From NCBI GenBank assembly GCA_022650485.1, contig JALCPP010000004.1:62001-126000 (forward strand): a stretch of DNA of 64,000 nucleotides. The letters run 5' to 3'. Origin of the DNA: Oscillospiraceae bacterium (GTDB lineage: Bacteria; Bacillota; Clostridia; Oscillospirales; Acutalibacteraceae). Positions 50,038 to 54,632 of the stretch are shown here, one piece after another (within the stretch, counting starts at the first letter, position 1; every line of letters starts with the position of its first letter). The position numbers and the translations under genes were made by a program. The notes beneath the pieces were generated by a model. It did not search any database, was not told the DNA's origin, and worked only from the letters and a program-made list of their open reading frames with translations.

Positions 50038-50074
50038 AAACAGCCATGCCGCTTTGTGCGGCGCGGCTGTTTTT
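50038..50074 (+). terminator. Intrinsic terminator after the CrtO-like gene
   Basis: AAACAGCC with inner GCCGC pairs with GCGGC and GGCTGTTT, followed by more T. It lies just before the cohesin-domain gene. Confidence 0.88.
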
Positions 50075-50099
50075 CAATATGCCGGGGGTGAAAGATGCA

Positions 50100-51233
50100 A
50101 TGAACAAACGCTGCCTTTCTGTAATGGTATCTTTGTGTTTTGCCTTGCTGGGGCTTGCTTCGGGGTCAGCGTCTGCCCATTCAGCCGCTTATTTTTCCTA
50201 TGCGCTGAATTCTGTTTCCGCTTCGCCGGGGGAAACGGTGAAATTAAACGTAAAAGCATTCAAAACGGAGGAAACGGCGGCGGGATTCCGGCTGAACGTT
50301 CAATATGATGAGGACAGGCTGGATTATATCGGAACCGAAACCGCCGGAGCGGTAAAGAGCGGAACTTTGCGGACCAATAACCATTCCGGTTTGGTCAGCG
50401 GTGTCTATGTCTGCAACACGGAATGCGAGGATGCGCCCAGACTTTCCGGCACGGTGGTTTCCTTTGCCTTTGCGGTGGAACCGGATGCCGATGCGGGGGA
50501 TACGGCGCTGACGGTGTCGGCGGACCAGGTCTGTAATTACGACGGTGACCCCCTCGATGCTTCCAGCGCGGATGAAAAGCTGAACCTGAACATTCAGCCG
50601 AAGGCTTCTTCAGATGCCAGCCTGACAGCGTTGGCACCGTCGGCCGGAACATTGAAACCGGACTTTTCCCCTTCCCTGTACCGCTACACGCTGAAAGTCG
50701 GCAGTGAAGTGGATGCCGTCGATTTTCAGCTGTCCGCCAAAGACGGGGGCCGTGCTCGCGTCAGCCGCACAGCGCTGAACCGGGCGGGAAAAGAAACGAA
50801 GATCACTGTTACGGTCACATCGGAAGATCAGCTGCGCACGGCGCAGTACATGGTTTTTGTCCAGCGCGCGGCAGCGGCAAAAGAAAAAGACACCGTGTCC
50901 GCGGCCGCGGGAACGGTGGAACATAAAAGTTCCGCAGTACCGCGGAACAGAGAACATGCACCGGCAGGAACAACATCTGCTTCGGCTTTGCAAAACGAAG
51001 AAGAACCGGAGTCAAAATCCGCGCGATCTTCGCGGGCGGAAGGCAGTTTGCAAGAAGGGCAGGGCGCAGGCCTACAACCGGCCGCTCAAACGCAGCAGGA
51101 TTCCGCCGGGCGGACGCTGGTGCTCACAGGGGACAGAATGCCCTCTTTCTTTTCCGGCATGATGGCCGCGGCTTTTTGCATTATGGTCGGAATGGCGGTC
51201 AGCTTTTGGCTGCCGGCCCACCGCCGGCGGTGA
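50100..51233 (+). CDS. Secreted cohesin-type plus cadherin-like domain protein, membrane anchored
   Basis: Surface protein of 377 aa. It has a signal peptide (about residues 1-27, ending ASA), a cohesin-like beta-sandwich (about 33-160, opening VSASPGETVKLNVKAF), a cadherin-like beta-sandwich domain (about 170-255, LTALAPSAGTLKPDFSPSLY), a low-complexity Ser/Glu/Gln-rich stretch, and a C-terminal helix (about 350-372) with an Arg tail. Cohesins bind dockerins in cellulosomes, but no dockerin or scaffoldin is seen, so it is probably a general adhesion or sensing protein. ATG 50100 follows GGGGGTG. Confidence 0.78.
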   Translation: MNKRCLSVMVSLCFALLGLASGSASAHSAAYFSYALNSVSASPGETVKLNVKAFKTEETAAGFRLNVQYDEDRLDYIGTETAGAVKSGTLRTNNHSGLVSGVYVCNTECEDAPRLSGTVVSFAFAVEPDADAGDTALTVSADQVCNYDGDPLDASSADEKLNLNIQPKASSDASLTALAPSAGTLKPDFSPSLYRYTLKVGSEVDAVDFQLSAKDGGRARVSRTALNRAGKETKITVTVTSEDQLRTAQYMVFVQRAAAAKEKDTVSAAAGTVEHKSSAVPRNREHAPAGTTSASALQNEEEPESKSARSSRAEGSLQEGQGAGLQPAAQTQQDSAGRTLVLTGDRMPSFFSGMMAAAFCIMVGMAVSFWLPAHRRR

Positions 51234-51803: not shown

Positions 51804-52484
51804 TTATTGAATAACAACTTTGGTGCCTGCCGGAATATGGTCGTAAATCCATTTTGCGTTTTCCGTGGTCAGGCGGATACATCCGTGGGAAGCGGGGGTC
51901 CCCAGCTTCGCGGCTTCCTCGGGCTCCATTTCCTCATTTTCGTCAAACGGAACGCTGTGAAACAGGTAGGCGTTATAAAAGCGGGTCCAGTAATAGGCGC
52001 CTTCCTGCACGCGGGGATTGTAAAAAGACATTCCGCGGCTTTTGGAGCCTTCGGCTATTGTGAATGTTCCGATTGGCGTTTCGCTGCCTTCTTTGCCGGA
52101 AGAACAAAGAAATTCCTGAACCAGCCGGCTTTCCGCATCCAGGACACGGACTTTCTGATCCTGAAGGGACACGTCGATTTTCAGGGGCTTTGCGGCCTTT
52201 TCAAGAGAAACCGTGACGGCCTCCGGCTCGCTGGAAGCGGGGGGCACGGAGGATTCCTGCACAGGCGCGGAAGAGATCGGTGTGGAAGAAACGGGCGTAC
52301 AAGAGGAAGATTCCGGTTCGGCGGCCACGGCGGACCGGTCGAATTTCATCCATTCCACCGCGGCGGAGACCCCCGCGGCAAAGCGGCCCGGGTCCAGTGC
52401 GGCATACGTTGCGCCCGCACCCACAAAAAGAATCAGGGCAGCGAGCAAAATTTGTTTGATGGGTCCTTTTCCGTGTCCTTTCAT
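51804..52484 (-). CDS. L,D-transpeptidase (YkuD family)
   Basis: Membrane-anchored cell-wall enzyme of 226 aa that cross-links or modifies peptidoglycan through L,D bonds. It has a signal anchor (about residues 11-30), a Ser/Pro linker, and a YkuD domain with catalytic motif LGTPASHGCIRL (His and Cys). ATG 52484 is preferred; AAGGA lies 14 bases upstream. The longer frame from ATG 52556 would start almost at the transcription start of the promoter at 52566-52594. Confidence 0.88.
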   Translation of the reverse strand: MKGHGKGPIKQILLAALILFVGAGATYAALDPGRFAAGVSAAVEWMKFDRSAVAAEPESSSCTPVSSTPISSAPVQESSVPPASSEPEAVTVSLEKAAKPLKIDVSLQDQKVRVLDAESRLVQEFLCSSGKEGSETPIGTFTIAEGSKSRGMSFYNPRVQEGAYYWTRFYNAYLFHSVPFDENEEMEPEEAAKLGTPASHGCIRLTTENAKWIYDHIPAGTKVVIQ

Positions 52485-52565
52485 GAAGGATCGGCACGTC
52501 CTTTCTTTCTTCGTCTGAATCCTGCCGCGTTCGGCGGCGAAGGACAAAATTTTCATTTTATCCTA

Positions 52566-52627: not shown

Positions 52628-53983
52628 CTACGGGTCCGACACCACGCCGAGAAACAGCGGCAGATTTGTGTCGGTGTTGATCACAGCGATGACAAACGGC
52701 CGGTCAAAGGTGAGAATATGGTCGGGGAGCGAACTGCCGGCCGCCATATCGACTGCGGTCACCGCCCCGGCCTTCAGCCCTTTTTCGTCGGCCTGAATAA
52801 ATGCTTTCTGCGTGACACCGCTAAGAAACAGGTTACCTTCCGGCGAGCTGCCCATTGCGGAAAAATCCGCTTTTTCCGCGTTAAACGCGTCGGAAAGGCC
52901 AAGTGATTTCAGTGTGCTGTTCAGGTCCATCGTGCAGTCAAATTTAAATTTTGGAAGAGATGCGGAAGCAAATTCTTTTTTTCCGGAACGCATCAGACTT
53001 AAAAACTTTTCCCCGGTCAAATTCTGGACATAGTCGCCGACAGCGGTGCCGTCTTTCGGCAGAATCGCCGCAAACGCGAAACGCGGGTCCTTGAGCGGCT
53101 TGAGCATGCCTTCGGCCTTATCATCGTTCAGGTATAGTTCCATCGAATGCATCATTTGAACGGTTTTATCGCCGCCCGGCGCGTGAAAGGTGCTGCTTCC
53201 GCTGCCGTTGTAGGCACTTTCCCAGTCCTGTTCCAGATACAGTGCGTTCAAAAGGAACATCATGTCATCCGGATTGATTTTCTCCACGATTTTTTTGATG
53301 TTTCCCTCCGTGTTTTTGCTGACCCAGGAATTGATTTTTTCGGCGGAGGAAGGGTTTGCAAAATCGAGCCGGAACGCATCCGCACCGAAGAAATCGGCGT
53401 TGTTCTGCAAAAACGGTTTCTGTACGGTCAGATTTTTGTTCCGGTACCAGATGGAATTGGCAAGAAGAAATTTTCCGCCTGTGACAGCTTTGAATACCTG
53501 CTGCTCCGCCGCAAAGTTCCGATTCAGCTCGGAAAGGCTCATTCCGTTTCCAAGAAGGGATTCAAACTGGGAAAGGGTTTCTCCCCCTGCGCCGTTTGCC
53601 GTCATGCCGAGCGCAAGTGCGGCGGAAAGAGGGGAAACAAGCGCGTTTTTGCCGGGCATGGCCGTTTTCTGAAACAAACCGACCGAAAAATCCGCCTGCG
53701 CCGCGATAAAGTCCGCACCGGGGCTTTTCGAAAGCTCCTGCTTTTGCGGTCGGATGTCCTCCATCAGGTTTTCCGTGGCGCCTGCGGGTACGGTCGCCGA
53801 TTTTAAAAGCGGCCCGATCATCAAGGCGCAGACAAGCACGGCCGCCAGCGCGCCCGGAAGAACCCATTTGAGCGTTCGGGGCTGTCTGTGCGGCTGCCGC
53901 ATGCGGGCGGCGGTTTCGCTCTTCCATTTTGAAGAAGCCTGAATTCTTCCGCATTCCTCACGGTATTTTTCTTGGTTACTCAT
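52628..53983 (-). CDS. Membrane-anchored serpin in the anti-sigma position
   Basis: Serine-protease-inhibitor fold protein of 451 aa. A cytoplasmic N-terminus of about 38 residues (QEKYREECGRIQASSKWKSE) resembles the short sigma-binding segment of Oscillospiraceae anti-sigma-like proteins. One helix follows (about 40-60), then a full serpin domain outside the membrane (LVSPLSAALALGMTANGA; ANSIWYRN; the strand HILTFDRPFVIAVI). The hinge is EKGLKAGAVTAV; the P14 Leu and P13 Lys are unlike good inhibitory serpins. ATG 53983 overlaps the ECF sigma gene by 8 bases, so expression is coupled. It likely links surface protease activity to the sigma factor (inference). Confidence 0.88.
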   Translation of the reverse strand: MSNQEKYREECGRIQASSKWKSETAARMRQPHRQPRTLKWVLPGALAAVLVCALMIGPLLKSATVPAGATENLMEDIRPQKQELSKSPGADFIAAQADFSVGLFQKTAMPGKNALVSPLSAALALGMTANGAGGETLSQFESLLGNGMSLSELNRNFAAEQQVFKAVTGGKFLLANSIWYRNKNLTVQKPFLQNNADFFGADAFRLDFANPSSAEKINSWVSKNTEGNIKKIVEKINPDDMMFLLNALYLEQDWESAYNGSGSSTFHAPGGDKTVQMMHSMELYLNDDKAEGMLKPLKDPRFAFAAILPKDGTAVGDYVQNLTGEKFLSLMRSGKKEFASASLPKFKFDCTMDLNSTLKSLGLSDAFNAEKADFSAMGSSPEGNLFLSGVTQKAFIQADEKGLKAGAVTAVDMAAGSSLPDHILTFDRPFVIAVINTDTNLPLFLGVVSDP

Positions 53984-54446
53984 CGTCAAACCCTCCTTTT
54001 AGCAAGTCTTTCAGTGCGGCGCGCGCCCGGTGCAGCCACGAGGAAACCGTGTTTTCACGCCTGTGTAGAAGGTGCGCGATTTCTTTCACGCTGAAGCCTT
54101 CGTAATAGTGCAGATAAACCGCGTTGCGGTAGGGAACCGGCAGAGACCAAACCGCTTCCAGTACCTCGGCATGGCATGGCTTGTCTGGGACTTCCTCAAG
54201 CGGCACCGCCTTTCGACGCGCCGATTTGAGAAAGTCCCGGCAGCGGTTGATTGTAACGCGGATCATCCAGGCTTTTTCGTGTTCCGGCGAGGCAAACGGC
54301 CGCCGCGCGGTGATCCGGCGAAGGAATACCTCCTGCGCGATGTCTTCGGCGTCAGATCGGGACCGCACATTGTGCAGGGCGATTCGCAGCACCATGTCGG
54401 AATAGCGGTCCAGCAAGTCTTTCGCCTGGGCTTCGGTTACTTCCAT
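53976..54446 (-). CDS. ECF-type RNA polymerase sigma factor
   Basis: Extracytoplasmic-function sigma factor of 156 aa. Region 2 covers about residues 10-75 (AEDIAQEVFLR, the core-binding and -10 segment) and region 4 about 100-150 (YRNAVYLHYYEGFSVKEIAHLLHRRENTV, the helix-turn-helix for -35). There is no extra domain. ATG 54446 follows AGAAAGGA. The next gene, overlapping by 8 bases, encodes a membrane serpin rather than an ordinary anti-sigma. No convincing self-recognised promoter was identified upstream. Confidence 0.94.
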   Translation of the reverse strand: MEVTEAQAKDLLDRYSDMVLRIALHNVRSRSDAEDIAQEVFLRRITARRPFASPEHEKAWMIRVTINRCRDFLKSARRKAVPLEEVPDKPCHAEVLEAVWSLPVPYRNAVYLHYYEGFSVKEIAHLLHRRENTVSSWLHRARAALKDLLKGGFDDE

Positions 54447-54632
54447 TCCTTTCTCCCCCTTCCTTTTTAATACGATTCAGAGGCCCGTTTCCTTGCAGGA
54501 TTTTCCTATGTTTTTATTTTTCTTTTACTGTATCATGGCAAAAGAAAAAAGGAAAGGGCAAACGGTTGGCAGGCAGAGGGTTTTCAACCAGCTAAAATTT
54601 CAAAATTGTTTTCAATTCGTTCATATTTTGGC

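Follow-up and report, generated by a model that had tools for sequence, protein, structure and literature searches.

The window analysed here, a stretch of 64,000 nucleotides from an Oscillospiraceae bacterium (GenBank assembly GCA_022650485.1, contig JALCPP010000004.1, positions 62,001 to 126,000), contains on its reverse strand an extracytoplasmic function (ECF) sigma factor gene (53976..54446, 156 amino acids) followed by a gene for a membrane-attached serpin (52628..53983, 451 amino acids, ATG start at 53983), the two frames sharing 8 bp (53976-53983). As is typical of ECF sigma factors, the first product comprises only sigma-70 region 2 (residues 11-78; Sigma70_r2 PF04542, 4.3e-13) and region 4 (residues 94-145; Sigma70_r4_2 PF08281, 3.3e-15), and it matches TIGR02937 at 1.2e-21 (77 bits, cut-off 42.9). 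We consider it probable, at roughly 60%, that the second gene specifies an anti-sigma factor set in the membrane, with the serpin as its sensor, and that the pair forms a circuit in which a protease releases the sigma factor.

The serpin gene product begins with a charged cytoplasmic tail of anti-sigma type (53864..53983, residues 1-40), assigned from a profile of tails of non-serpin proteins and from modelled helices, which is followed by a membrane helix (53804..53863, about residues 41-60, with Leu-Ala-Ala at 46-48) placed by hydropathy and alignment, this being the one hydrophobic helix, which begins near residue 41. A juxtamembrane tether (53714..53803, residues 61-90) carrying the segment E-N-L-M-E-D-I at residues 71-77 leads to the serpin domain (52631..53701, residues 95-451), which includes the reactive centre loop region (52724..52786, residues 400-420); all of these features are on the reverse strand. 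Serpin (PF00079, 2.7e-80) is the single Pfam family in the protein and covers profile positions 2-370 of 370, and among PDB folds its AlphaFold model matches that of native tengpin first (2pee; TM by target length 0.90), so the domain is complete. The model (16 sequences, mean pLDDT 79.5) gives a confident serpin body and, with middling confidence, tail helices at residues 3-13 and 18-28; the membrane stretch is poorly modelled and the reactive loop is unsettled (pLDDT <50 at 405-419). No NCBIfam name was assigned to this serpin, and no further serpin match was found in the window genome.

A preliminary description made from the letters of the sequence had given the same coordinates, strand and 8-bp overlap, which agree with the open reading frames, and had seen a short tail, one membrane helix and a complete serpin, which Pfam, hydropathy and the model confirm. 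Its phrase, a membrane serpin in place of an anti-sigma factor, is right as to architecture, and a more fitting description would be a protein of anti-sigma type that has a serpin as its ectodomain. A gene overlapping the sigma gene and encoding a cytoplasmic tail and one membrane helix has the layout of a single-pass anti-sigma factor.

Conservation of the sigma-serpin pair

The fused serpin is present in all four genomes of the window genus, and the sigma gene precedes it in each (L230, L229, L306, which is identical to L031 over its length, and the window). Two genomes of another genus of the same family (G152 and G025) carry the pair at about 50% identity, and a diverged version, with a sigma factor 32% identical, is found in G191. 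None of the window neighbours glnA, YkuD, zinc-ribbon, CrtO-like and Phos_pyr_kin was found in the 14-15 kb around the pair in G152 and G025; because the pair is kept where these neighbours are absent, the sigma and serpin genes stay together while their surroundings change. The preliminary description had been staked beforehand on conservation of the gene pair in related genomes, and it passes on this point, with the pair kept throughout the window genus and in a second genus.

Distribution among serpins of the class

Serpins were sought in 200 genomes of the family, drawn evenly (65 with a match), and likewise in the order (matches in 188 of 394 genomes) and in the class (160 of 391), draws that overlap one another. 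The surroundings of 215 distinct serpin open reading frames (ORFs; loci L001-L213) were inspected, ORFs covering fewer than 220 profile positions having been dropped before counting. Some tallies were first made on 220 ORFs (89 in the family), from which five repeats were merged with no effect on the two classes defined below; one merged repeat, L168, may be a true tandem copy. The serpins of the family draw were all inspected except two fragments (G196, G055), and inspection in the order and class draws covered the best-scoring loci and hand-picked regions, seven of the latter chosen for a match start near the tail. Serpins with a tail and helix directly behind an ECF sigma gene were placed in class A, and those separated from the sigma gene by a distinct membrane protein gene in class B.

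Of the 215 serpin ORFs, 71 have an ECF sigma gene upstream and in the same orientation, comprising 34 of class A, 29 of class B and 8 in which it is further away; the share of class A leans towards relatives of the window serpin, because the order and class loci were best-scoring or picked. A chance neighbourhood was rejected, as the sigma gene is upstream directly in 34 and indirectly in 29 and downstream in only 2 (15 of the 215 ORFs having <1300 bp of upstream and 131 at least 1300 bp of downstream sequence); both downstream cases belong to class B and so also have a sigma gene upstream. A sigma gene on the opposite strand accompanies 3 of the 215. The frames of class A overlap in 29 of 34 pairs, by 4 bp in 19, and the hydrophobic helix starts between residues 28 and 59 in every one. 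Pfam confirmed both serpin and sigma factor in all five class A pairs sampled, although in two of these just one of the two sigma regions passed 1e-5. A lipobox-like motif occurs in 24 of the 29 class B serpins, and a comparable tail was found in 3 of the 144 serpins lacking a sigma gene, one of them at a contig end and one doubtful. The even family draw (n = 85) contains 19 serpins of class A, 5 of class B, 4 with a distant sigma gene and 57 with none. The architecture is real, conserved and widespread in the sampled class. The link seems to thin out beyond the class, as a phylum draw with matches in 74 of 398 genomes gave 26 new best-scoring loci, two of which (L260, L262) have an upstream sigma gene. 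A scan of a genome collection found one relative.

Serpin genes stand two or more in a row at six loci in family genomes (L003, L004, L018, L026, L029 and L094); in the last of these the leading serpin is a fusion that follows a sigma gene, and the two after it resemble lipoproteins.

Origin of the cytoplasmic tail

Relatives of the window sigma factor, 42-58% identical and found in genomes of the same taxonomic family, occur at 25 loci (L233-L257) where no serpin follows. In all 25 the next gene, whose start lies between -29 and +13 relative to the end of the sigma frame, codes for a tail-helix protein, the outer domain of which, in the nine scanned, is RsgI_M (three), DUF4349 (two), DUF4474 (one) or no known domain (three). 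A profile built from these 25 tails, with no serpin protein included, matches the window tail at 29.5 bits (E 4.1e-8 at Z 1000), the best of 3500 shuffles reaching 9.0, and matches the tails of five near relatives at 24.8-38.6 bits. By this measure the window tail is homologous to those of other partners of related sigma factors, which are taken as anti-sigma factors from their position and domains, and the match supports reading the window protein as anti-sigma-type with the serpin as its outer domain. The likeness of the tail to the sigma-binding segment of clostridial anti-sigma-like proteins, proposed in the preliminary description, is thus upheld, and the tail would be expected to bind the sigma factor. 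A signalling role for the tail-serpin protein is likely.

Other fused serpins carry tails of other kinds, among them M-R-S-F-E-E-R-K and D-A-I-G types, several of which by eye resemble those on the distinct class B membrane proteins. That the fusion arose only once was rejected, since a quick serpin tree, which still included the five repeat ORFs, needs 22 changes of fused state, 11 against class B alone and at least five by its well-supported (starred) branches, origins and losses being indistinguishable in these counts. The presence of at least three kinds of fused tail suggests that the fusion was built several times, so that anti-sigma tails may repeatedly have been joined to serpins, perhaps from class B operons.

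The outer domains DUF4349 and DUF4474 of tail-helix proteins encoded after ECF sigma genes (L237, L238, L239) may themselves be sensors of anti-sigma factors.

A promoter-like element upstream of the operon

A promoter-like element, GCAAG-N17-CGTATT (54469..54496, reverse strand), ends 22 bp before the sigma start and precedes the sigma gene in the window and in five of five relatives, being exact in five of these six (L031 has GCACG) and followed by a conserved G-rich stretch. Its 17-bp spacing between boxes and the CGTA in its -10 box form a layout that fits ECF promoters generally. The exact pattern has 17 matches in five genomes, against 9 for a reversed control pattern, and one match in each genome precedes a start of the sigma gene by 4-22 bp; three of these five sites also fall inside an upstream extension of the sigma frame. 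Each of the other 12 exact matches is overlapped by a long open frame on one of the two strands, and a wider regulon was accordingly rejected. The conservation of this element before the sigma gene suggests that the sigma factor drives its own operon and hence the production of its serpin.

Serpin body and tether

The closest solved serpin by sequence is tengpin of Thermoanaerobacter tengcongensis (2pee, 2pef, 2vh4; E 4.5e-90), which the window serpin resembles in sequence, in fold, in an N-terminal extension containing NLM and in Lys at P13 of the reactive loop. The tether segment E-N-L-M-E-D-I, in which N, L, M and I are invariant across the six fused serpins of alignment A1, aligns to that extension, which is reported to guard the native state of tengpin (PMC8233489). 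By eye, many unfused serpins have the motif too, so it is no distinguishing mark of the sensor. In the window protein the segment connects the membrane helix with the serpin body, and for this reason the helix is proposed to feel a transition of the serpin.

A close orthologue of tengpin (731 bits to 2pee) in genome G1352 follows an ECF sigma gene and a gene for a DUF4367 membrane protein overlapping the sigma gene by 8 bp, which is the order of class B. It differs from the window serpin in being, by eye, a lipoprotein with no tail and in having a separate membrane protein, and it places a close relative of the structurally well-studied tengpin in a sigma factor setting. At this locus (L286:2186-5183) these genes are preceded by another sigma gene accompanied by a Sigma_reg_N/C protein. 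In G1227, which has the same genus code, a short sigma frame lies before the tengpin orthologue (L287:1721-3602) and no partner frame of 90 amino acids was found between the two, making a decayed switch possible.

A proposed circuit of protease sensing

At rest, the two-helix cytoplasmic tail would hold the sigma factor, and the metastable serpin would stand outside the membrane with the E-N-L-M tether packed on its body as in tengpin. An extracellular protease would then cleave, or be trapped by, the reactive loop, and the irreversible serpin transition would expose or pull the tether, allowing a site-2 protease to cut the membrane helix, after which the tail would be destroyed and the sigma factor freed, steps that would follow the course known for RsgI. 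The freed sigma factor would transcribe its own operon, giving new serpin and new anti-sigma factor together, so that the serpin would be both inhibitor and gauge, its consumption triggering its replacement. The preliminary description had likewise proposed a sensor of extracellular protease activity and is partly supported in its overall interpretation. A protease is the most economical signal for a serpin sensor, and intramembrane proteolysis of the helix would be consistent with a site-2 protease gene in the window genome (E 1.2e-59). Sigma factors and serpins also co-diverge (Mantel r 0.48 for n = 34 and 0.30 for a thinned set of n = 23, with 0 of 5000 permutations in each case), which speaks for the circuit. 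The Leu-Ala-Ala of the helix is like the XAA signals named for RsgI (PMC12203970), a weak likeness as Ala is common in helices.

A fuller form of this circuit, which we put forward tentatively and at a little under even odds, makes a suicide inhibitor a gauge of its own consumption: the transition set off by a trapped protease would free the sigma factor through one helix and lead to more inhibitor being made, in a fusion that would have been built several times, perhaps from operons of sigma factor, anti-sigma factor and serpin.

Several points weigh against this circuit. No subtilisin-family gene was found in the window genome, so the protease would have to be foreign or of another family, and no wider regulon emerged in the five genomes, where the 12 further promoter matches look incidental beside the number given by the control. 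We know of no case in which a serpin transition signals through a membrane helix, and Leu at P14 may slow loop insertion, so that trapping may be poor. In the window-type profile, several of the tails found on other fused serpins do not rise above shuffled sequences, and the correlation between sigma factors and serpins is uncorrected for kinship of the organisms themselves.

The reactive loop hinge and alternative roles of the serpin

Serpins of inhibitor type have Gly at P15, a small residue at P14 and small residues at P12-P9. Counted from Glu400 as P17, the window hinge has Gly at P15, Leu403 at P14, Lys404 at P13 and A-G-A-V-T at P12-P8, so that P15 and P12-P9 fit this pattern and P14 deviates. 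Both A-G-A-V-T and Lys at P13 are ordinary among the surveyed serpins, Lys being the commonest P13 residue in every class (73 of the 144 that lack a sigma gene, 19 of 29 in class B and 16 of 34 fused). Tengpin, which also has Lys at P13, is reported as an inhibitor of neutrophil elastase that forms a covalent complex (PMC8201313). Lys at P13 was therefore rejected as a sign of a non-inhibitor, and the earlier view of the hinge as not that of a classical inhibitor stands for P14, where Leu is unusual, and falls for P13.

The rival that survives best, which we nevertheless regard as rather unlikely, accepts the anti-sigma role and takes the serpin to be no longer an inhibitor, acting only as a sensor that is a cleaved substrate or a binder of a ligand or peptide. 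It draws on the depletion of Thr or Ser at P14, present in 15 of 34 fused serpins and in 140 of 173 others (27 of 29 in class B and 113 of 144 with no sigma gene, where 5 sequences are gapped at this position; Fisher p 4.2e-5, falling to 5.2e-6 once the gapped sequences are left out). The 15 fused serpins of this count all have Thr. Of the 19 that deviate, five make up the window clade (three with Leu, two with Ala), one is L174 (Ala) and 13 are serpins with tails of the D-A-I-G..D..L-I type, in which P14 is Val, Cys or Ile and P9 is frequently Tyr or Phe. Against this rival, these form two blocks and one single case, amounting to a few events and not nineteen, and the hinge is ordinary in three or four other fused serpins bearing a tail of that kind. 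Within the window genus, moreover, P12-P8 is inhibitor-like and Lys at P13 is shared with tengpin. On these alignments the fused class as a whole would not be non-inhibitory, the hinge having apparently drifted in two lineages in a way that would permit a sensor-only role there, and the hinge-drifted serpins with D-A-I-G-type tails are perhaps sensors only. The latter are L118, L120, L122, L123, L125, L126, L129, L132, L136, L137, L143, L145 and L153. L117 also has a D-A-I-G-type tail, and its upstream DNA is missing.

It is less likely still that the protein is an inhibitor held at the membrane, with a tail that signals how much serpin is on the surface, or its misfolding into latent or polymeric forms under envelope stress, in place of protease attack. 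The metastability of serpins, the resemblance of the tether to the part of tengpin that protects its native form and a promoter-like element before the protein's own operon, which fits a supply loop, would all suit such a role, yet no result here favours heat or misfolding as the signal. That the genes are merely co-transcribed and the tail is a membrane anchor with no part in sigma control is very improbable, given the homology of the tail to partners of related sigma factors, the recurrence of the arrangement with several tail types in 34 of 215 serpins and the retention of the pair where the searched neighbours had changed.

Relation to known systems

The serpin-bearing anti-sigma factor proposed here resembles the RsgI-type anti-sigma factors of Clostridium thermocellum, partners of SigI, in having a cytoplasmic domain, one membrane helix, an exchangeable extracellular sensor and a sigma partner (PMC12203970), and some relatives of the window sigma factor precede proteins with RsgI_M. 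It differs in having no RsgI_M match, Serpin being its one Pfam family, and in a sigma factor that matches ECF models with regions 2 and 4; no SigI model was found among the best 25 of its 82 matches. The same paper lists carbohydrate-binding, glycosidase, peptidase-like, NTF2-like and unknown domains as RsgI sensors, against a serpin in the window protein, and describes RsgI signalling by autocleavage, an RseP cut in the helix and removal of the tail by ClpXP (PMC12203970). The role of RsgI in cellulosome regulation is the subject of PMC3413522. The window protein would thus amount to an RsgI-like ectodomain exchange with a serpin as the new sensor.

In Bifidobacterium breve, a serpin is reported to be induced by protease through a two-component system (PMC8012564), so that serpin production is likewise tied to extracellular protease by a neighbouring regulator. 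Regulator and serpin are separate proteins in that system, whereas in the window inhibitor and regulator would be one molecule. Searches of an open-access library gave no title or abstract opening on a serpin acting as an anti-sigma factor; the full texts may say more, and the main ECF classification may note such pairs. If correct, the circuit would be the first case known to us in which a change of serpin conformation is relayed through a membrane to transcription, and many bacterial serpins of unknown purpose would gain a role. It also makes the question of bacterial serpin function directly testable, with the sigma factor as a ready reporter.

Neighbouring genes

Rfam and tRNA scans of the window gave no matches. 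The serpin gene is followed by an L,D-transpeptidase (YkuD) gene (51804-52556, reverse strand), as it is in the relatives L031 and L032; this gene was not found adjoining the pair in G152 and G025, and a flagellin gene lies downstream of the pair in both (Pfam-checked for G152). Further along, on the forward strand, a gene at 50046-51233 encodes a protein with a cohesin match (2.7e-6), a cadherin-like domain and, by eye, a hydrophobic C-terminus, and is possibly a surface anchor.
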